From the NCBI RefSeq assembly GCF_900324475.1, contig NZ_LT992502.1, positions 2,418,001 through 2,482,000 on the forward strand: 64,000 nucleotides of DNA, given 5' to 3'. The notes beneath the pieces are model-generated. The model made no database searches, was not told the DNA's origin, and saw nothing but the letters and a program-made list of their open reading frames with translations. Every line of letters starts with the position of its first letter. Within the stretch, counting starts at the first letter, position 1. The DNA is from Enterobacter bugandensis (GTDB taxonomy: Bacteria; Pseudomonadota; Gammaproteobacteria; Enterobacterales; Enterobacteriaceae). Positions 37,290-50,891 of the stretch are shown here, in pieces. The position numbers were made by a program, and so were the translations under genes.

Positions 37290-37862
37290 ATGAGCCACTT
37301 TCGCCCTGTTGAATTACGTCATGCCAGCCGTCTGCTGAACCACGGCCCTACCGTGCTGATCACCAGCCGCGATGAAACCCTGGACAGACGTAACGTTATG
37401 GCCGCCGCATGGTCAATGCCCGTTGAGTTTGAACCGCCGCGCATCGCGATTGTGGTGGATAAAAGTACCTGGTCACGTGAGCTGATTGAGCACAGCGGGA
37501 AGTTTGGCATCGTCATCCCCGGCGTGGCGGCAGCTAACTGGACATACGCTGTCGGCAGCGTCAGCGGGCGCGACGAGGACAAATTCAACTGCTACGGGAT
37601 CCCGGTCGTGAACGGCCCTGAGCTCGGGCTGCCGGTGATTGAAGAAAAATGTCTGGCGTGGATGGAGTGCCGATTACTTCCCGTCACCTCTGCGGCAGAG
37701 AAATACGACACGCTGTTTGGAGAAGTGGTTTCAGCGGCAGCCGATGAGCGCGCGTTTGTCGCCGGGCGCTGGCAGTTTGACGGGGATAAGTTGAATACCC
37801 TGCATCATTTAGGGGCTGGGACGTTTGTGGCGAGCGGAAAGATGGTGAAGGCGCTGGATTGA
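37290..37862 (+). CDS. yddH: YddH-like flavin reductase family protein
   Basis: Protein of 190 residues with the FMN-binding split-barrel fold of flavin reductases. The line LLNHGPTVLITSRDE, then NVMAAAWSMPVEFEPPRIAIVVDKSTW-type text (residues 35-62) and DKFNCYGIPV match E. coli YddH closely. Such proteins bind FMN and often reduce it for two-component monooxygenases; no physiological partner is known. Divergent from nhoA; the ribosome site GAGGAG is six bases before the ATG. With two luciferase-like monooxygenases within 13 kb it could be a reductase donor, which is speculation. Confidence 0.9.
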   Translation: MSHFRPVELRHASRLLNHGPTVLITSRDETLDRRNVMAAAWSMPVEFEPPRIAIVVDKSTWSRELIEHSGKFGIVIPGVAAANWTYAVGSVSGRDEDKFNCYGIPVVNGPELGLPVIEEKCLAWMECRLLPVTSAAEKYDTLFGEVVSAAADERAFVAGRWQFDGDKLNTLHHLGAGTFVASGKMVKALD

Positions 37863-42613: not shown

Positions 42614-43231
42614 TCAGATAATGTTGTTTGCCTTTAACACCTTGTGCAGTTCCGGCAGCTGACACACGGTATCCGCAATCGCCGTAAGCTTCGGCGTATT
42701 TGTCGCAAACCACTCATGGCGAGGCCCCCAGGTGCGCGCCACCGCAATATACACATCCAGCAGCGTCAGCCGTTCACCCAGCGCAAACGGCGCGGCCTTA
42801 AGCTGATTTTCAAACCACAGATAGAGGGATTTCCGGTACTCAATGCAGTTTTTCTGCAGCTGTTCCGGCGCATCAGGCACCCAGCGTTCGGGATAATCGG
42901 CATAGGTAAAGGTGGGATAGACGTTCGCCACAAACCAGATAAGCAGACGCTGAAACTGCTGACGCTCGGCCTGCCCCACGGGCGGGGCGAGATCGGGACA
43001 ACGGTCGAGCACCATCAGAGCAATCGCCGCCGTTTCGGTCATGATGGCGCCATTTTCCAGCTCCAGCGTGGGCACCTGGCACAGCGGGTTGAGTTTTTGC
43101 AGCAGTTCACGCTGCGGGCCGGGCTGGTCAAACCCGTCAACGTTCACAAATTGATAAGGGATATCAGCCAGGGTCAGCATCACTTCACTGATTGCCGAGC
43201 CCCAGCCGGGTACGCCATAGAGTTTCATCAT
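42614..43231 (-). CDS. yncG: YncG-like glutathione S-transferase homolog
   Basis: Protein of 205 residues with the thioredoxin-like N-terminal domain (VYGV-type start [17 protein letters not shown], cis-Pro in [23 protein letters not shown]) and the all-helical GST C-terminal domain. It aligns with E. coli YncG along its length. GSTs conjugate or exchange glutathione on electrophiles; no substrate is known for YncG. It begins 41 bases after the last gene of the S-substituted-cysteine operon on the same strand, so read-through transcription is plausible. A GST would suit a pathway dealing with thiol adducts, though yncG also exists without that operon in E. coli. Confidence 0.9.
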
Positions 43232-43272
43232 GTTGCCCCCTCAGGAGTGAAAATCCTAAGTGTAGAGCACCA

Positions 43273-44160
43273 TTAGTAGGTTATCCCAGGCGGGTTGACC
43301 TCCGATTGCGCCACCGCTTCGCCCTGTTCGCCCCAGCGCGCCAGCACTTTCTGGTACTCTCCGCGCTCAATCGCCCCGTTCAGCGCGGCCTGCAGCGCGT
43401 ACACCAGCCCATTGCCTTTTTTGGTCGTGGTGGCGACATAAGCTTTTTTCGGACCTAAACCGACCACGCGGGTTTTGCCGGTGAGCGCCGCTTTGTAAGC
43501 TGAAACCGACTGAGGGCCAAAGAACACGTCCGCCCTGCCGGACTGGATATAGAGATTGCCCGAGGCATCGTCGTGGAGATAGACCGGCAGCGCAGGCGCT
43601 CGCCCCGCCTTTTTATTCTCTTCGTTCCAGCCCAGCAGGATGCGCTCCTGATTGGTGCCCGAGCCGACAATCACCTTTTTTCCGGCCAGATCTTCCGCGC
43701 TTTTGATTGATTGAATCTCGCTGGTGGACTTCACTGAAAACGCCAACGAATCGACGCGGTAGGTCGCAAAATCAAACTTCTCTTTACGCTGTTCGGTCAC
43801 CGCAATGTTCACCAGCGCCACGTCGTAGCGCCCGGAAGCGATGCCCAGCGGCCAGTCTTCCCACGCCGTTGGCACCAGCTTTAGCTTCAGCCCCAGGCTG
43901 CCCGCCAGCAGGCGGGCGATATCCGGGTCGCTGCCAATCCGCGTGCGGTTATCGCTGGCCAGCAGCGCCAGCGGCGGGGAGTTCAGCATCGAGACGGCGA
44001 CCGTCAGCGTACCCGGCTCAACGAATTTATAACCGGCGGGGATCTTCGCCACGGCCTGCCGATCCACCGTCACCGGCAGCGGCTGCTCGTTGGCTTTCAG
44101 ATCGATGCTGGCGTGGCTTGCCGTTGTGAAGACCAGCCCCGCCAGAAGTCCGTATTTCAT
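43273..44160 (-). CDS. Polar amino acid ABC transporter substrate-binding protein (second copy)
   Basis: Periplasmic SBP family 3 protein of 295 residues with a signal peptide (MKYGLLAGLVFTTASHA). Landmarks: GTLTVAVSMLNSPPLALL, WEDWPLGIASGRYDVALVNI, RKEKFDFATYRVDSLAF and VGSGTNQERILLGW. It shares the last three almost word for word with the product of 46382-47314, so the two are paralogs serving one transporter, as TcyJ and TcyK do in Bacillus. It follows the ATPase gene by nine bases and is the last core gene of the operon. Confidence 0.9.
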   Translation of the reverse strand: MKYGLLAGLVFTTASHASIDLKANEQPLPVTVDRQAVAKIPAGYKFVEPGTLTVAVSMLNSPPLALLASDNRTRIGSDPDIARLLAGSLGLKLKLVPTAWEDWPLGIASGRYDVALVNIAVTEQRKEKFDFATYRVDSLAFSVKSTSEIQSIKSAEDLAGKKVIVGSGTNQERILLGWNEENKKAGRAPALPVYLHDDASGNLYIQSGRADVFFGPQSVSAYKAALTGKTRVVGLGPKKAYVATTTKKGNGLVYALQAALNGAIERGEYQKVLARWGEQGEAVAQSEVNPPGITY

Positions 44161-44169
44161 CTGCGCTCC

Positions 44170-44943
44170 TTACAGCACTTTTGACAGGAACTGGCGCGTT
44201 CGCGCATGCGACGGACGGTTCAATACCGCGTCGCTGCTGCCCTGCTCCACGATTTTCCCGTCGACCATAAACACCACCTGATCCGCCACCTCGCGGGCAA
44301 AGCCGATCTCGTGGGTGACCACCACCAGCGTAGTGCCGGACCGGGCCAGTTTTTTGATCACGTCCAGCACCTCTCCCACCAGCTCCGGATCCAGCGCCGA
44401 GGTAGGTTCATCAAACAGCATCACGCGGGGGCGTAACGCCAGCGCGCGGGCAATCGCAATGCGCTGCTGCTGCCCGCCGGAGAGATGGCGAGACCAGGCA
44501 TCGGCTTTATCCCGTAGCCCAACCACGTCCAGCAGGCTGTACGCTCTTTCCACCGCCTCTTTTTTGCTGAGCTTCTTATGCGCGATGGGCGCCTCAATCA
44601 GGTTTTCCAGCACCGTAAGGTGAGGAAAGAGATTGAAGTTCTGAAACACATAGCCCACGTTGACGCGCTGCTTGAGGATCTCTTTCTCCTTCAGCTCATA
44701 GAGCTTGTCGCCCTGACGACGGTAGCCAATGTAGTCCCCGTCGATCTGAATAAAGCCTTCGTCGACGCGCTCCAGATGGTTAATGGTGCGCAGCAGCGTC
44801 GATTTGCCCGAGCCTGAGGGCCCGAGAATGACCGTCACGGAACCGGGCGGGATCTCAAGCGAAACGTTGTCGAGCGCCTTATGGCGACCAAAATACTTGC
44901 TGACGCCGGTAATCGAGATATGTCCTTCAGGAGAGGCTTGCAT
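44170..44943 (-). CDS. Polar amino acid ABC transporter ATPase (GlnQ/TcyN/YxeO type)
   Basis: Cytoplasmic ATP-binding subunit of 257 residues. Walker A GPSGSGKST, Q-loop GYVFQNFNLFPHLTV, signature HLSGGQQQRIAIARAL, Walker B VMLFDEPTSALDPE and H-loop VVVTHEIGFA are all intact. The insertion with KLYELKEKEILKQRV between Walker A and the Q-loop is typical of cystine/histidine-type transporters. The start at 44943 (MQASPEGHIS) overlaps the permease gene by 17 bases; the extended frame to 45051 is unlikely. Confidence 0.93.
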   Translation of the reverse strand: MQASPEGHISITGVSKYFGRHKALDNVSLEIPPGSVTVILGPSGSGKSTLLRTINHLERVDEGFIQIDGDYIGYRRQGDKLYELKEKEILKQRVNVGYVFQNFNLFPHLTVLENLIEAPIAHKKLSKKEAVERAYSLLDVVGLRDKADAWSRHLSGGQQQRIAIARALALRPRVMLFDEPTSALDPELVGEVLDVIKKLARSGTTLVVVTHEIGFAREVADQVVFMVDGKIVEQGSSDAVLNRPSHARTRQFLSKVL

Positions 44944-45853
44944 GGATAGGCTCCTGTGATGGCGTGGTGGTGACGGAACGGGTGCGACGGGCGGCGCGGT
45001 TCTGATTAACCGCAGAGCGGCGTTCGCTGCGGGCGAGTGCGCGTTCAACACCGTACTGAATAGCGGACAAGACGGTGGTAATCACCAGGTACCACGCGGC
45101 ACCGACCATCAGCAACGGGATCACCTCCTGCGTGCGGTTGTAGATCATCTGGATGGTATAGAACAGCTCCGGCATTGCCAGGACATAGACCATCGCCGTC
45201 CCCTTGGCGAGGCTGATAATTTCATTGAACCCGGACGGCAGAATGGTACGCAGCGCCTGAGGCAAAATGATGCGCACCGTACGTCGCCAGGCCGGCAGGC
45301 CAAGCGCGGCGGCCGCTTCATACTGGCCGTGATCCACCCCGAGGAAACCCCCGCGAATAATCTCTGCGGTGTAGGCGCTCTGCACCAGCGTCAGCCCCAC
45401 CACGGCGGTGGAGAACTGCCCGAGCACGTTAATGGTCTCAAAACTGCCCCAGCTAATGCTGGTGAACGGCACGCCGAGGGAGAGCGTGTCGTAGAGATAG
45501 GAAAAGTTGTAGAGAATGATCAGCACCACGATCAGCGGCAGCGAGCGAAACAGCCAGATATAGCCCCACGCCAGGCTGCTCAGCAGCCATGACGAGGAGA
45601 GTCTCGCCAGCGCCAGCATGCCGCCCAACACCACGCTCAGCGCGGTACCGATCAGGGTAAGCAGCAGAGTCTGCCCTACGCCTTCGAGAATAACCGGGTC
45701 GAAGAACCAGCGGGCAAACACCGCCCACTCCCAGCGCGGGTTGAAAGCGACGGACTGGATCACGATCGCCAGGACAAACAGCGCCACCGCGGCGCCGACG
45801 GTCCGCAGCGGATAACGCGCCGGGACCACCTTAATGGTTTCAACGTTGCTCAT
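44927..45853 (-). CDS. Polar amino acid ABC transporter permease (TcyL/YxeN type)
   Basis: Inner-membrane permease of 308 residues, longer than the usual 220 because of an N-terminal helix and loop and a basic C-terminal tail. The His/Glu/Gln/Arg/opine permease domain starts near residue 60 (ILEGVGQTLLLTLIGTALSV). The coupling motif is QYEAAAALGLPAWRRTVRIILPQALR. Start ATG 45853 (MSNVETIK) has a TGAGGA site seven bases upstream; ATG 45857-45859 is too close to it. A single permease gene implies a homodimer. Confidence 0.92.
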   Translation of the reverse strand: MSNVETIKVVPARYPLRTVGAAVALFVLAIVIQSVAFNPRWEWAVFARWFFDPVILEGVGQTLLLTLIGTALSVVLGGMLALARLSSSWLLSSLAWGYIWLFRSLPLIVVLIILYNFSYLYDTLSLGVPFTSISWGSFETINVLGQFSTAVVGLTLVQSAYTAEIIRGGFLGVDHGQYEAAAALGLPAWRRTVRIILPQALRTILPSGFNEIISLAKGTAMVYVLAMPELFYTIQMIYNRTQEVIPLLMVGAAWYLVITTVLSAIQYGVERALARSERRSAVNQNRAARRTRSVTTTPSQEPIHASLS

Positions 45854-45862
45854 CGTCATTCC

Positions 45863-46372
45863 TCATGCGGTTTTACTGAACGCTTCGCGTACCAGCGTTT
45901 TAGTGAAGCGCAGCCGACCATCAAACGGCGGCTGGCTGTACTCTTCCGGATCCCGGTTCAGATCAAACTGTGGCTGGTAGCCCTGGCTGAGATAGAGCCT
46001 GACCGCTTCCGGCTGGCGAAAACCGGTTGTCAGGTAGATCTGGCTGTAACCTGCCAGCACCGCCCTGCGCTCCAGCTCCTGCACTACGCGTCCGGCAAGC
46101 CCCTGCTGACGCAGGGTTTTGTCCGTCCAGATGCGCTTGATTTCCGCGGTGCGTTCGTCGAAGGGTTTGTACGCACCGGTGGCGATGATTTTTCCGTCAC
46201 GCTCCAGGACGATAAACAGCCCCTGCGGCGCTAAATACCACTCGGTGAGTTCCACTTCCGCGTCTTTAGAGAAGTAGTCACCGTAGCGGGCGGCATATTC
46301 ACCGAACAGCCCCTCGATAATGGGCTGAAGTTCGGCATCTTCCGGTGAAACGTCACGAAATTGTTCACGCAT
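45863..46372 (-). CDS. GNAT N-acetyltransferase of the S-substituted-cysteine operon (YxeL/SnaA-like role)
   Basis: GCN5-type acetyltransferase of 169 residues. The acetyl-CoA binding motif A is seen at AEIKRIWTDKTLRQQGLAGRVVQELE (R-Q-Q-G-L-A) around residues 76-101, followed by YLTTGFRQPEAVRLYLSQGY. In the Bacillus yxe and ytm operons an enzyme of this class acetylates the amino group of S-(2-succino)cysteine or S-alkylcysteine so that the flavin monooxygenase can act. Its place between the binding protein and permease genes, with GGAGG just before ATG 46372, supports that job by context; sequence alone gives only the superfamily. Confidence 0.82.
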   Translation of the reverse strand: MREQFRDVSPEDAELQPIIEGLFGEYAARYGDYFSKDAEVELTEWYLAPQGLFIVLERDGKIIATGAYKPFDERTAEIKRIWTDKTLRQQGLAGRVVQELERRAVLAGYSQIYLTTGFRQPEAVRLYLSQGYQPQFDLNRDPEEYSQPPFDGRLRFTKTLVREAFSKTA

Positions 46373-46381
46373 AGCGCCTCC

Positions 46382-47314
46382 TTAATCACCCAGGCCATCA
46401 GGATTCACTTCTGACTGCGGAATACGCTCAACGCCTTCCCCCCAGCGGTTCAGCACTTTGTCGTAATCGCCGTTTTTGATGACGCCGTTCAGCGCGGTTT
46501 GCACCGGCTCAACCAGCCCGCTGCCTTTCTTCAGCGTCACCGCAATGTGCGCCGCCTTCGGCCAGCCGCCGTCGACGCTACCCACCAGTTTGGTTTTCCC
46601 GTTCAGCGCCGCCTTCCATGCGCCAATCACGTTCGGGCCAAAGTAGGCATCCGCGCGCCCGGACTGGAGCGCCAGCGTTTGCGCCGCATCGTCTTTAGTG
46701 TAGATCGGCGTAAACGGTTTCAGCCCCTTCTTCAGGTTTTCAGCATTCCATGCCAGCAGGATGGCCTCCTGGTTGGTGCCGGAGCCGACGATAATCCGCA
46801 GCCCGGCGATGTCCTCAGCCTTCTGAAGCGATTCGATCGGGCTGGTCGATTTCACGTAGAAGCCGAGGGAGTCCTTACGGTAGGTAGCGAAATCAAACTT
46901 CTCTTTGCGCGCTTTGGTAACGGTAATGTTGCTGATGGCGGCATCGTATTTTCCGGACGCCACACCCAGCGGCCAGTCTTCCCACGACGTTGGCACCACG
47001 TTCAATTCAAGCCCGAGGCTGTCGGCCACCAGACGGGCGACGTCAACTTCACTCCCGAGCAGCGTTTTGTTGTCGTCGGAAAATACCGTCAGCGGCGGTT
47101 GATTGAGGCCCGCCACCGCCACGGTAAATTTCCCCGGCACGGCGAAGCGATAATCTTTCGGCAGCTGCGCCACTGCATCGCTGTTTTTGGCGGTATTGAT
47201 CGGCGTTTTATTGGCCTCGATGCTCACGCCGGTGCCGTTAATGTTCACATTCTCTGCCCAGACGGCAGGGGTAAAGGCCAGCGCGAGCGCCAGAATAAGC
47301 GATGTTTTTTGCAT
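46382..47314 (-). CDS. Polar amino acid ABC transporter substrate-binding protein (first copy)
   Basis: Periplasmic SBP family 3 protein of 310 residues; signal peptide MQKTSLILALALAFTPAVWA then ENVNING. It has GKFTVAVAGLNQPPLTVF, WEDWPLGVASGKYDAAISNI, RKEKFDFATYRKDSLGFYV and VGSGTNQEAILLAW. It is a paralog of the product at 43273. The family includes cystine and S-methylcysteine binders. It lies 14 bases after the YxeK/NtaA-like monooxygenase gene and nine before the GNAT gene. Confidence 0.9.
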   Translation of the reverse strand: MQKTSLILALALAFTPAVWAENVNINGTGVSIEANKTPINTAKNSDAVAQLPKDYRFAVPGKFTVAVAGLNQPPLTVFSDDNKTLLGSEVDVARLVADSLGLELNVVPTSWEDWPLGVASGKYDAAISNITVTKARKEKFDFATYRKDSLGFYVKSTSPIESLQKAEDIAGLRIIVGSGTNQEAILLAWNAENLKKGLKPFTPIYTKDDAAQTLALQSGRADAYFGPNVIGAWKAALNGKTKLVGSVDGGWPKAAHIAVTLKKGSGLVEPVQTALNGVIKNGDYDKVLNRWGEGVERIPQSEVNPDGLGD

Positions 47315-47328
47315 AGCGGAGTTCTCTT

Positions 47329-48645
47329 TTATTGTTGTGTGAACTGGTTTTTCGGTTGGTCTAAGCCAAGGCTTTCGCGCAGCGTGGTTCCCGGGTAGTC
47401 GGTGCGGAACAGGCCGCGGGCCTGTAAAACGGGCACCACCTGGTCAACAAAGCGCGGAAAGGTATCCGGCGTACCGCCCTGGATGATGAAGCCGTCTGCG
47501 GCATAGCCTTCAAACCAGGCCTGCAGACCGTCGGCGACCTCCTCCGGCGTGCCGGAAAAGCGCGGGCGCGGCGATGCGGCCTCAAGCGCCACCTGGCGCA
47601 GGGTTAAGTTGCGCTCGCGGGCATTTCGCTTAATTTCATCGGTGGTGCTGCGGAAGCTGTTTTTGCCTAAGTCACCGATATCCGGGAACGGCTCGTCGAG
47701 CGGATACTGGCTGAAATCGTGATGTTCAAAATAACGCCCGAGGTAATTGAGGGCATCGGTAACCGACACCAGCGCCGCCGTGGTTTGATACTGGTTTTCT
47801 ACGTCATCGGCGTCTTTACCGACAATCACGCTGACGCCCTGGAAGATATGTAAATCTGACGCGCGGCGGCCGTTTGTTTCCAGCTGCTGCTTCACGTCGC
47901 GGTAAAACGCTTTTGCCTCGTCGAGCGTTTCGTGATGAGTGAAAATGGCGTCGGCATGTTTTGCCGCCAGCTTTTTCCCGTCGTCCGACGCGCCCGCCTG
48001 AAAAACAATCGGACGCCCTTGCGGGGTGCGACCAATATTCAGCGGACCGGCGACCTGGAAGAAGTCACCGTGGTGATCGAGCGTATGCAGCCTGGCCGGG
48101 TCAAAAAACTGACCGTTCTCTTTGTTGCGGATAAACGCGTCGCCTTCCCAGGAGTCCCACAGCCCTTTCACCACGTCGAGATACTCATCCGCAATGCGAT
48201 AGCGCAGCGCATGCTCGGGGTGTTTTTCGCGCGAGAAGTTCTTTGCCGACCCTTCCAGCGGCGAAGTCACCACGTTCCAGCCCGCACGTCCGTTGCTCAG
48301 ATGATCGAGGCTGGCGAACTGGCGCGCTGTGGTAAAGGGTTCGCTGTAGGAGGTGGATAATGTTCCCACCAGCCCCAGCCGCGTGGTGATGCTTGCCAGC
48401 GCGGATAATACCGTTAACGGCTCAAAGCGGTTTAAAAAATGCGGAATGGATTTCTCATTTATATAAAGACCGTCGGCAACGAATAAAAAATCGAGTTTGC
48501 CCTCCTCCGCTTTTAACGCCGTCTCTTTTACAAATTCAAAATTAATGCTGGCATCCGCGACCGCCGCCGGATGACGCCAGGCGGACATATTGCCCGATGC
48601 ACCATGCAAAATGGTCCCAAGCCGCAGTTGACGATTTGCAGACAT
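47329..48645 (-). CDS. NtaA/SnaA/DszA-family FMN monooxygenase (YxeK/CmoJ-like)
   Basis: Reduced-FMN-dependent LLM-superfamily monooxygenase of 438 residues, the large (nitrilotriacetate/DszA) subtype. Signatures: [18 protein letters not shown] near the start, [28 protein letters not shown], and [43 protein letters not shown] (in part). Bacillus YxeK and CmoJ of this subtype oxygenate N-acetylated S-succino- or S-alkyl-cysteine and so cleave the C-S bond. The start [10 protein letters not shown] at 48645, after GAGAGG, is preferred to the frame from 48720, which overlaps the amidohydrolase gene. Confidence 0.88.
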
Positions 48646-48661
48646 ATTTACCTCTCCAGAA

Positions 48662-49783
48662 TTAAACGTGTTGCAGGGCTTTTTCCGCCAGCTGTGCAAA
48701 ATAGCGGGCTGCGGGCTCAATCAGGGCTTCGTCAGGATTAAACGCCGGGTGATGTAAACCATACGGGCTGTTGCTGCCGATGCTGACAAACGCGCCGGGA
48801 ACAGACTGCAGGTAGACCGCAAAATCTTCCCCGCCCATATGCAGTTCCGCGTGCCGGGTTTCATAACCGGCCTCACGCGCGACCGAGGTGGCGAAGTCGG
48901 CCCAGCGCTCGTCGTTCACCAGCGCGGTGGGCCCGGCATACCAGGTGATGTCGATCTGCGCGCTGAAGGCGCTGGCAAACCCGGCGGCGATTTCGCCCAC
49001 GCGGGCCTTCACGTTCTGCTGCACCTCCGTGCGGTGGGTGCGAAGCGTGCCCTCCAGCTCGACGCTTTCGGGCAGCACGTTCCAGGTGTTACCCCCTGCG
49101 ATGCGCGTCACGCTCAGCACCACCGAATCCAGCGTGTTGACGTTGCGGCTGGCGACGCTTTGCAGCGCCGTCACCAGCTGGCTCGCCAGCACAATGGCGT
49201 CGTTGCCTTCGTGCGGGCGGGCCGCATGTGCGCCCTTGCCGGTGATGCGGATCACGAAGCGATCGACGTTGGCATAAAACGGTCCGCCGCGGGTGGCGAA
49301 CTCACCGACCGGCAGGCCGGGCTCGTTGTGCATGCCGAAAATGGCGCTGACGTCACGCAGGGCACCGGCACGCACCATGCTCTTCGCACCGCCAAAGTTC
49401 TCTTCGGCAGGTTGAAACAGGATACGCACCCGGCCGTTAAGTGAGGCTTCCCGCTCTTTGAGCTTTAACGCGGCGCCGAGGATCACGCTGGTGTGGATAT
49501 CGTGTCCGCAGGCGTGCATCACGCCTGCATGCTGCGAGCTAAACGGCACGCCGCTGCGCTCTTCAATTGGCAGGGCATCAATGTCTGCCCGCAGCGCAAT
49601 CAGCTTGCTACCGGTTCCAATTTCCGCCACCAGCCCGGTCGGCAGATCGTAAGGCTGTGGGGGAATACCGGCATTCGTCAGCCACTGGCGCAGGCGCGCG
49701 GTGGTCTCCACTTCCTGGCCGGACAGCTCCGGGTTCCGGTGCAGCTCACGACGCCAGGCAATCAGTTGTTCGCCGAAGCTCAT
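48662..49783 (-). CDS. M20-family N-acyl-amino acid deacetylase (YxeP/SndA-like)
   Basis: Zn-dependent M20D amidohydrolase of 373 residues. Metal ligands are seen in [10 protein letters not shown] (Cys and His near residues 91-93), QPAEENFGG (Glu pair near 125), GMHNEPGLP (His near 151) and LHHPAFN near the end. The dimerisation domain carries [14 protein letters not shown]. In the Bacillus yxe/ytm pathways the equivalent enzyme removes the acetyl group from N-acetylcysteine after C-S cleavage, giving cysteine. It overlaps the preceding monooxygenase gene by four bases. Confidence 0.88.
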
Positions 49784-50781
49784 ACGGTGACCTCCCTGTT
49801 AAGACGCGCCTCAGCCAGCAGACGCAGAGACGCGACGCGCGTTGCCCCCTCCGCGACCGGCGTGTCGATGATAAATTCGTCAATGCCCCACTGTTCGTGC
49901 AGCGCGTTAAGCTGTTCCAGCACCGACTCAGCCGTGCCCGCCAGCAGCGACTGGGCCCGACGGGCAATGCGCACCGGCTCGCTCCCCGCCTGACGGGCAA
50001 AGGCGTAGGCCTGCTCCTCGCTGGCGACGGTTACGCGCTGGCCGTTTGCCAGCTCAACGCCCCACACTTCGACCTTCTGCGCCAGCGCGTCCGCTTCGGC
50101 CTGGGTCGGCGCGACAATCGCCTGCACCGCCACAATCACCTCCCGCGCGCTGTTCTTCCGCCAGATCGATACCACCTCGCGCAGCAGCTCCGGATCGCCG
50201 TTCAGGTGCGCGGCAAAGACGAAGTGCCAGTCGAGCGATGCGGCGAGCAGCGCGCTTTCGGTGCTGGCCCCCAGCAGGAAACCTTGTGCAGGGACCGGCG
50301 GCAACGGCGTGGCGCGAACGGCCTCTTCCGCCGACTGGTTTTCAGGGCGGATCCAGCGATCGAGCTGGGTCAGCTGTTCGGCAAAGCTGCCTTTTTCCTG
50401 TGGATGCAAGCCAGGCTGCAGCGCGCGGGTCGAGAGCGGTAGCCCACCGGGGGCTTTCCCGACGCCCAGATCCACGCGACCCGGCGCCAGCGCGGCCAGC
50501 ACGTTGAAGTTCTCGGCGACTTTATAAGGGCTGTAGTGTTGAAGCATTACGCCGCCGGATCCGACGCGAATGCGCTTGGTTTGCCCGAGGATCCAGGCAA
50601 TCAGCAGCTCCGGCGAAGGGCTAGCAAGATGGGGAGTGTTGTGGTGTTCGGCAATCCAGAAGCGGTGATAGCCCAGATTTTCTGCCTGTTGCGCCAGCGC
50701 TAACGTCCGCGCCAGCGCATCGGCAGCCGTTTCATTTTCAGCGATGGGGCTTTTATCCAGAATGCTGATTCGCCATGACAT
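49780..50781 (-). CDS. Luciferase-like FMN monooxygenase, group 1 (MsnO8/YtmO-like)
   Basis: LLM-class flavin oxidoreductase of 333 residues and first gene of the operon. It has the group 1 features SILDKSPI at the start, GYHRFWIAEHHN near residue 37, TKRIRVGSGGVMLQHYSPYKVAENF and LAPGRVDLGVGKAPGG. Relatives include E. coli YhbW and Bacillus YtmO (CmoO). A second, differently built monooxygenase is encoded two genes downstream, as in the ytm operon, where the two act at different steps of S-alkylcysteine breakdown. Reduced FMN must come from a reductase not encoded in the operon. Confidence 0.87.
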   Translation of the reverse strand: MSWRISILDKSPIAENETAADALARTLALAQQAENLGYHRFWIAEHHNTPHLASPSPELLIAWILGQTKRIRVGSGGVMLQHYSPYKVAENFNVLAALAPGRVDLGVGKAPGGLPLSTRALQPGLHPQEKGSFAEQLTQLDRWIRPENQSAEEAVRATPLPPVPAQGFLLGASTESALLAASLDWHFVFAAHLNGDPELLREVVSIWRKNSAREVIVAVQAIVAPTQAEADALAQKVEVWGVELANGQRVTVASEEQAYAFARQAGSEPVRIARRAQSLLAGTAESVLEQLNALHEQWGIDEFIIDTPVAEGATRVASLRLLAEARLNREVTV

Positions 50782-50891
50782 GTTGCGTTCTCGTTTGACT
50801 TAACATGTCGACATTATTAAAGGCGTATTTCACCACTGAGAAACAATTAATTTACATTTGGTTTGCCGGAAATCAGATATATAAAACCCTA

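Follow-up and report, generated by a model that had tools for sequence, protein, structure and literature searches.

A sulphur-poor operon of Enterobacter bugandensis that probably salvages S-substituted cysteines by a cmo/ytm-type pathway

Gene content and organization of the operon

The DNA examined here is a stretch of 64,000 nucleotides from Enterobacter bugandensis (contig NZ_LT992502.1, positions 2,418,001 to 2,482,000), hereafter the window, in which eight genes on the minus strand (43273-50781) form a tight operon that is considered as a candidate system for the salvage of S-substituted cysteines (Table 1). Consecutive genes are separated by –17 to +16 bases: –4 between the genes of the MsnO8-family luciferase-like monooxygenase (LLM) and the M20 enzyme, 16 between the latter and the NtaA-type monooxygenase, 14 from there to binding protein 1, 9 between binding protein 1 and GNAT, 3 between GNAT and permease, –17 between permease and ATPase, and 9 between ATPase and binding protein 2. 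Two start codons were placed downstream of those given by the open reading frame (ORF) tool, which were judged too far upstream, namely ATG 48645 instead of TTG 48720 for the NtaA-type gene and ATG 44943 instead of GTG 45051 for the ATPase gene. A first-pass annotation of this DNA had described eight closely spaced minus-strand genes in the same order, and all of them were recovered; the interval that it assigned to the block, 42614-50781, does contain the eight genes but also spans yncG (42614-43231), whereas the operon ends at 43273. Its location of the block between yncG and ansP, where E. coli has no such genes, was borne out, these two genes being adjacent in E. coli K-12 with 266 bases between them.

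Table 1. Features of the operon and of its upstream region, in the direction of transcription (genes) and outward from the first start codon (upstream elements); coordinates are those of the window
Feature	Coordinates	Strand	Basis
CmoO-type (MsnO8 family, LLM group 1) flavin monooxygenase, proposed N-acetyl-S-alkylcysteine sulfoxidation	49780..50781	-	TIGR03558
M20 amidohydrolase, proposed N-acetylcysteine deacetylase	48662..49783	-	TIGR01891, YxeP chain 1ysj
CmoJ/YtnJ-type flavin monooxygenase (NtaA/DmoA family), proposed sulfoxide C-S cleavage	47329..48645	-	YtnJ match and clade
Binding protein 1 (SBP family 3)	46382..47314	-	PF00497
GNAT N-acetyltransferase, proposed N-acetylation of S-substituted cysteine	45863..46372	-	PF00583
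ABC permease, single	44927..45859	-	PF00528
ABC ATPase	44170..44943	-	Best NCBIfam match TcyN model
Binding protein 2, paralogue of binding protein 1	43273..44160	-	PF00497
Conserved promoter core AAATGTAAATTAATTGTTTC	50840..50859	-	78 bases before first ATG
Conserved upstream block, consensus GCTTATCTAATTTTTAGCTAACC, candidate Cbl/CysB site	50860..50882	-	Resembles elements before ssuE and tauA

Affiliation of the monooxygenases and associated enzymes

The NtaA-family protein scored 575 bits to the B. subtilis YtnJ chains 1yw1 and 1tvl and to MoxC 6ask, and YtnJ, which we take to be CmoJ, was its closest solved relative (58% identity). In a tree of 35 chosen rows, the window protein, YtnJ and Listeria CmoJ fell into one group of 28 rows (support 99/98), while three enzymes from scm loci, standing in for B. 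subtilis YxeK, were placed outside this clade and were 43-46% identical to the window enzyme; long-branch warnings were raised for scm and outgroup sequences and for some of the remoter CmoJ sequences, not for the window protein. The cmo-type loci used for comparison came from Listeria (L101) and Niallia (L102), both with CmoO, CmoI, CmoJ and a flavin mononucleotide (FMN) reductase, and the scm-type loci from Pantoea SOD02 (L113; GNAT, M20, MmgE/PrpD and an LLM enzyme nearby), Pantoea piersonii (L112; a lyase replaces the LLM enzyme) and Niallia (L110; both lyase and LLM enzyme). No YxeQ-like (MmgE/PrpD) gene was detected by tblastn (E 1e-3) in the window or in the DNA around the 80 relatives described below (up to 10 kb on each side, five being shorter), and no 2SL lyase gene was found near these relatives. 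These comparisons indicate that the operon is most likely of the cmo/ytm type, for S-alkylcysteine salvage, and not of the yxe/scm type. Thus, of the yxe/ytm label given by the first-pass annotation, only the ytm side stands, and its remark that a YxeQ-like gene is missing agrees with this search.

The MsnO8 protein exceeded its family cut-off widely (TIGR03558, 347 bits, cut-off 167) and shared 40.5% of 328 aligned residues with Listeria CmoO/YtmO; against Listeria CmoO it scored 230 bits, compared with 150-171 bits for four YhbW copies. The M20 protein matched TIGR01891 (373 bits), was 47% identical to the YxeP chain 1ysj over 369 residues and carried the motifs HACGHD, PAEE, HNEPG and HHPAF, which presumably form the metal site. 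N-acetylcysteine deacetylase activity is common to ScmP, YhaA and YtnL of B. subtilis (PMC12757645), so that the M20 enzyme is compatible with either pathway. The GNAT was 48-53% identical to the GNATs of rhizobial and Paraburkholderia operons; the operon encodes both a GNAT (PF00583) and an M20 enzyme (TIGR01891), putative counterparts of YtmI and YtnL. The first-pass annotation had made the placement of these proteins with the Bacillus clades its test, and the outcome was partial: CmoJ lies inside, the CmoO tree leaves the place of YhbW open, and the M20 and GNAT identities do not discriminate.

CmoO and CmoJ genes were also found together in Niallia and Paraburkholderia, in Listeria with GNAT, and in Phyllobacterium and Agrobacterium with GNAT as well as M20. 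Ewingella and Pantoea (L104, L007) have a second CmoJ paralogue, with 68-71% identity to that of the window, next to genes of ABC transporters; in Ewingella it is accompanied by MsnO8 and GNAT genes and by an importer of a different type. The CmoJ copy of genome G197 carries one in-frame TAG, and a 700-residue protein (P0007) joins M20 and luciferase-like domains as if the neighbouring genes 2 and 3 were fused. Among the scm-type loci, that of Niallia (L110, 4859-11573) combines a 2SL-like lyase with a YxeK-like enzyme, a combination that PMC9706529 calls rare, and the 2SL-type locus of the Pantoea piersonii plasmid (L112, 4694-10101) has its lyase annotated as purB.

A single-permease importer

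The two binding proteins were 57% identical to each other, and both about 24% identical to those of Listeria. Models for the binding of cystine and of basic amino acids matched binding protein 1 weakly, with scores below the cut-offs; similarly, PRK15100, a cystine permease model, was the best NCBIfam match of the permease but fell short of its cut-off, and the ATPase, 50% identical to Listeria TcyN, matched the TcyN model best (301 bits, cut-off 406). A Tcy-type importer has two permeases, and a single one is encoded here. An ABC importer is part of the functional set, as had been claimed, but it is not the Bacillus Tcy set.

Distribution and neighbourhood

The eight-gene grouping is not a chance arrangement, since the same set recurs in 80 relatives (the best 80 of 174 from a scan of genome contigs). 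CmoJ, binding protein 1, GNAT and permease genes were present in all 80 loci, CmoO and ATPase genes in 79, M20 in 77 and binding protein 2 in 61; the latter was absent in 17 of the 78 relatives that remain once two loci cut by contig ends (L043, L095) are set aside. An ordered listing gave 58 full sets, 16 sets without binding protein 2 and two, both of Tatumella, without M20, the other four loci being incompletely read where contig ends shift the coordinates. DNA comparison with 29 loci placed the nearest copies in Enterobacter (E. chuandaensis L023, 92.1% over 18.5 kb; E. vonholyi L021, 90.5%). Moreover, of 392 genomes of the wider family, 117 had a match at E 1e-100 or better and 78 a copy with at least 75% identity. 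The operon is widespread in Enterobacterales, and it also occurs outside the neighbourhood of ansP and a glutathione transferase (GST) gene, since 23 of the 80 loci have neither (ansP is nearby in 54, GST in 47).

In 5426 E. coli genomes, a megablast search with the 7.7-kb operon returned only two short matches, both in hisP, and blastn with short words returned no match for the CmoJ gene. This absence fits a loss in E. coli, gain elsewhere being the alternative.

The gene yncG, which encodes a GST, lies 41 bases downstream of the operon. It was considered as a ninth member and rejected: no GST gene is annotated beside the Pantoea plasmid copy, 33 of the 80 loci are without it, and its cysteine and methionine content is ordinary (4 and 4 in 205 residues). 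It is probably not part of the operon. In E. chuandaensis (L023, 14476-14570) binding protein 2 is missing and the GST gene directly follows the ATPase gene. A 5.37-Mb K. pneumoniae record labelled as a plasmid (L001, CP125156.1) looks chromosomal, and the MsnO8 gene of its operon is matched in two different frames. A PHROGs search, tried with one protein, gave no match.

Sulphur-poor proteins

The eight operon proteins contain one cysteine and 15 internal methionines in 2477 residues (0.04% and 0.61%), and the single cysteine sits in the HACGHD motif of the M20 enzyme. By comparison, 47 other ORFs of the window (long and non-overlapping, some of which may not be genes) contain 1.04% cysteine and 2.63% methionine (Fisher p 2e-9 and 1e-12). 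The same tendency was observed across the 80 loci, with 0.18% cysteine and 0.65% methionine in operon proteins versus 0.88% and 2.54% in the flanks. Comparable values were obtained for the sulfonate systems of E. coli K-12, tauABCD (one cysteine, 12 internal methionines in 1133 residues) and ssuEADCB (one and 16 in 1409); cysP and cysA products were also low, and those of gsi, cysU, cysW and tcyP were so to a lesser degree. In Listeria, CmoJ and CmoO have equally little of both residues, which suits the same role, and the four YhbW copies (1-3 cysteines and 11-13 methionines each) are not sulphur-poor. This composition suggests a tie between the operon and sulphur starvation.

A conserved control region

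The element AAATGTAAATTAATTGTTTC, with up to four substitutions, was found in 74 of 80 upstream regions (the window and 73 of 79 loci; 30 non-redundant), in 71 of them exactly at position –78; the six regions without it belong to Pluralibacter, Pantoea and Tatumella, two each. In four genomes, its matches with zero to two mismatches were precisely the four operon promoters, and allowing three added two more; this rarity proves little by itself, because a reversed control pattern gave seven matches. Occurrences of AAATGTAAATTAATTGTTTC before seven E. coli sulphur genes were searched for and not counted, the best, on the minus strand at ssuE and the top match of 67 kb, scoring 6.3 versus 22.5 for the lowest operon site.

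Directly upstream lies a second conserved block with consensus GCTTATCTAATTTTTAGCTAACC. In a scan of both strands of 67 kb of E. coli sequence, made up of eight regions of which seven had been picked for sulphur genes, its best match was found 116 bases before tauA; the 18.1 bits of this match lie inside the span of the operon-site scores, which starts at 14.1. Taken alone this is moderate evidence, since about 4% of all positions scanned belong to the seven upstream stretches. In front of ssuE, the plus strand matched best at –125 to –127 in all six species inspected, which do not count as six independent cases because the regions are homologous; in E. hormaechei and E. coli a minus-strand place scored slightly higher when both strands were scanned. 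None of 1000 column-permuted matrices placed all six ssuE matches together and one reached their summed score, while eight reached the tauA sum and two the tauA maximum. Shuffled ssuE regions attained the real score 10, 2 and 11 times per 1000 in Klebsiella, E. vonholyi and Buttiauxella, respectively. The tauA match was clear in E. coli and Pantoea only. Cbl activates both ssu and tau, and the GCTTATCTAATTTTTAGCTAACC block is, on balance, a probable site for an activator of the Cbl/CysB type.

Proposed pathway

The gene set and its conservation, the position of the NtaA-type enzyme in the CmoJ clade, the sulphur-poor proteins and the conserved promoter lead us to regard the operon, with good though not full confidence, as a sulphur-starvation operon of the cmo/ytm kind that salvages S-substituted cysteines. 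In B. subtilis, CmoO forms a sulfoxide and CmoJ cleaves it, as was demonstrated with S-benzylcysteine, and the substrates of CmoJ are N-acetyl sulfoxides (PMC10863075); PMC12757645 ascribes N-acetylcysteine deacetylase activity to YtnL. By analogy, and because the NtaA-type enzyme falls in the CmoJ clade and the scm-locus enzymes outside it, the two monooxygenases of the window probably perform successive steps of one pathway. The first-pass annotation had taken the presence of both types as a hint of a different substrate range; this presence is explained more simply by CmoO followed by CmoJ (PMC10863075). Its general scheme of import, N-acetylation, oxygenation and deacetylation is supported.

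We infer the following course. When sulphate is short, an activator of the Cbl/CysB type would turn on transcription, and the amino-acid-type ABC importer, with its two alternative binding proteins, would take in S-substituted cysteines, which the GNAT would N-acetylate. The CmoO-type monooxygenase would then convert the thioether to the sulfoxide, and the CmoJ-type monooxygenase would split the latter, yielding an aldehyde and N-acetylcysteine sulfenic acid. This acid might be reduced by general thiols of the cell or by thioredoxin/glutaredoxin, and cysteine would finally be freed from N-acetylcysteine by the M20 enzyme. Reduced FMN would probably come from a reductase encoded elsewhere, most likely SsuE, which is a candidate since the Listeria ytmI operon begins with an SsuE-type reductase gene and ssuE scored above the family cut-off in all five enteric genomes examined. 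A gene for a YddH-type flavin reductase, situated outside the operon, occurs in 23 of the 80 loci and also in the window (37290-37862, plus strand; product 85% identical to E. coli YddH). It is a weak candidate for the dedicated supplier, its product not being sulphur-poor (three cysteines, four internal methionines) and E. coli having YddH without the operon.

Several observations weigh against this interpretation. A tblastn search with the Listeria proteins (E 1e-3, which diverged genes could escape) revealed no gene for an SsuE-type reductase or a CmoI glutaredoxin, neither in the window nor around the 80 relatives. The CmoO tree, in which the Tatumella row is the wrong paralogue, leaves open the orthology with CmoO relative to YhbW; the M20 protein shares 50-53% identity with its counterparts in two scm-type loci, and the GNAT only 25% with that of the Listeria ytmI operon. 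The importer belongs to another subtype than Bacillus Tcy, and it was treated as a swapped module that does not define the pathway. Low sulphur content is also shared by two proteins encoded outside the operon, an adenylate-kinase-like neighbour (no cysteine and two methionines in 192 residues) and YncE (one and three in 366), and the scm-type M20 proteins are as sulphur-poor as that of the window. As to the control region, shuffled ssuE sequences reached the real score 118, 466 and 73 times per 1000 in E. hormaechei, Pantoea and E. coli, respectively; the tauA match was weak in Klebsiella, both Enterobacter and Buttiauxella and good only in Pantoea among five genomes; and a reversed matrix gave a higher sum on tauA (53.0 versus 47.3).

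Alternative interpretations

The alternative that survives best, though unlikely, is that mercapturates (N-acetyl-S-conjugates) or plant cysteine sulfoxides are imported in place of free S-alkylcysteines, the GNAT serving intracellular conjugates. In the HisJ/GlnH family, an aspartate holds the α-amino group of the ligand, and both window binding proteins have proline at this position, which together with the action of CmoJ on N-acetyl sulfoxides (PMC10863075) would suit N-acetylated ligands. The substitution was nevertheless dropped as a sign of such ligands, because the Listeria binding protein also lacks this aspartate and its transporter, that of the ytmI operon, imports free cystine and cysteine according to PMC9239247; the trait does not discriminate.

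It is considerably less probable that the operon is of the yxe/scm type and serves S-(2-succino)cysteine, with a YxeK-type enzyme that cleaves this compound directly. The functional classes are the same, CmoJ and YxeK are sequence homologues (PMC10863075), and the likeness of the M20 enzyme to those of scm-type loci points that way, but the window enzyme groups with CmoJ to the exclusion of the scm-locus enzymes, neither an MmgE/PrpD nor a 2SL gene was found near the 80 relatives, and the operon includes a CmoO-type gene for which the published scm pathway has no use. Moreover, the Pantoea SOD02 plasmid holds, at separate places, a window-type operon and an scm-type locus (GNAT, M20, MmgE/PrpD, LLM enzyme). 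Pantoea X85 likewise has both the operon and an LLM enzyme that shares 98% identity with its scm-type counterpart.

Slightly less probable again is an importer devoted mainly to cystine or other disulphides, with oxygenases acting on something else; the substrates reported for the Listeria transporter and the below-cut-off matches of ATPase and permease to cystine-type models agree with it, but permease, GNAT and CmoJ genes occur together in 80 of 80 loci, with CmoO in 79 and M20 in 77, and the importer subtype differs from Tcy. The least probable alternative, an operon that detoxifies electrophile-cysteine conjugates jointly with the glutathione transferase YncG, draws on the proximity of yncG and on the co-occurrence of binding protein 2 and GST genes in 36 of 80 loci (within 170 bases in 21 of these), and it is contradicted by the 33 loci and the annotated neighbours of the Pantoea plasmid copy in which such a GST is absent, by E. 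coli, which retains yncG without the operon, and by the ordinary composition of YncG beside eight proteins that are together sulphur-poor.

If the operon does salvage S-substituted cysteines, a good many enteric bacteria, among them Enterobacter, Klebsiella, Citrobacter, Kosakonia and Pantoea, own a route to cysteine whose steps have until now been established in Bacillus, and which would be overlooked because E. coli, the usual model, is without it. This route could be tested as a source of sulphur in the gut and in plant environments and as a third branch of the starvation response that includes tau and ssu; its enzymes would be candidates for flavin-driven Pummerer-type cleavage in hosts that lend themselves to genetics. 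A bolder and quite tentative picture gives many Enterobacteriaceae, E. coli excepted, a Cbl-switched third organosulphur arm beside tau and ssu, fed with reduced flavin by SsuE and lost in the model E. coli; through it cysteine would be recovered from mercapturates, plant cysteine sulfoxides and cysteine conjugates that the cells meet in the gut, in urine or in plant tissue. The cmo pathway has been described as spread in soil bacteria (PMC10863075), and no paper on CmoJ or a cmo operon in Enterobacterales was present among the literature matches listed, which cover subscription journals thinly.

Comparison with known systems

The ytm operon of B. subtilis presumably has the order ytmI-tcyJKLMN-cmoO(ytmO)-cmoI(ytnI)-cmoJ(ytnJ)-ribR-ytnL. 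The window operon shares with it and with the Listeria ytmI operon the GNAT, an importer, a CmoO-type enzyme and CmoJ (the latter 56-58% identical), and with B. subtilis also a putative N-acetylcysteine deacetylase; it differs in having one permease instead of two and a promoter other than that of the Bacilli, and CmoI and SsuE-type genes, which Listeria and Niallia possess, were not found near it. Its first gene is that of the CmoO-type enzyme, and no LysR gene lies directly upstream of it in the window, as one does in Listeria. With the yxe/scm operon of B. subtilis it shares GNAT, importer, M20 and the logic of acetylation, cleavage and deacetylation (PMC9706529), but the cleaving enzyme belongs to another clade, a CmoO-type enzyme is present and no YxeQ was found.

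Further counterparts exist in two rhizobial operons and a Paraburkholderia cluster (L105-L107), which share CmoJ and CmoO (48-58% identical) and the same importer subtype (ATPase part 68-73%). The rhizobial operons (L105, L106) read MsnO8-CmoJ-M20-GNAT-fused permease/ATPase-binding protein, whereas permease and ATPase are separate in the window and the order is different; the Paraburkholderia cluster (L107) lacks M20. The tau and ssu systems of E. coli resemble the operon in their sulphur-poor proteins and possibly in the promoter block, and ssu also in FMN-dependent C-S cleavage, but their substrates are sulfonates and their importers are of other subtypes. The type of pathway is already known, and what is particular to the enteric version is its importer, its missing accessory genes and its control region.

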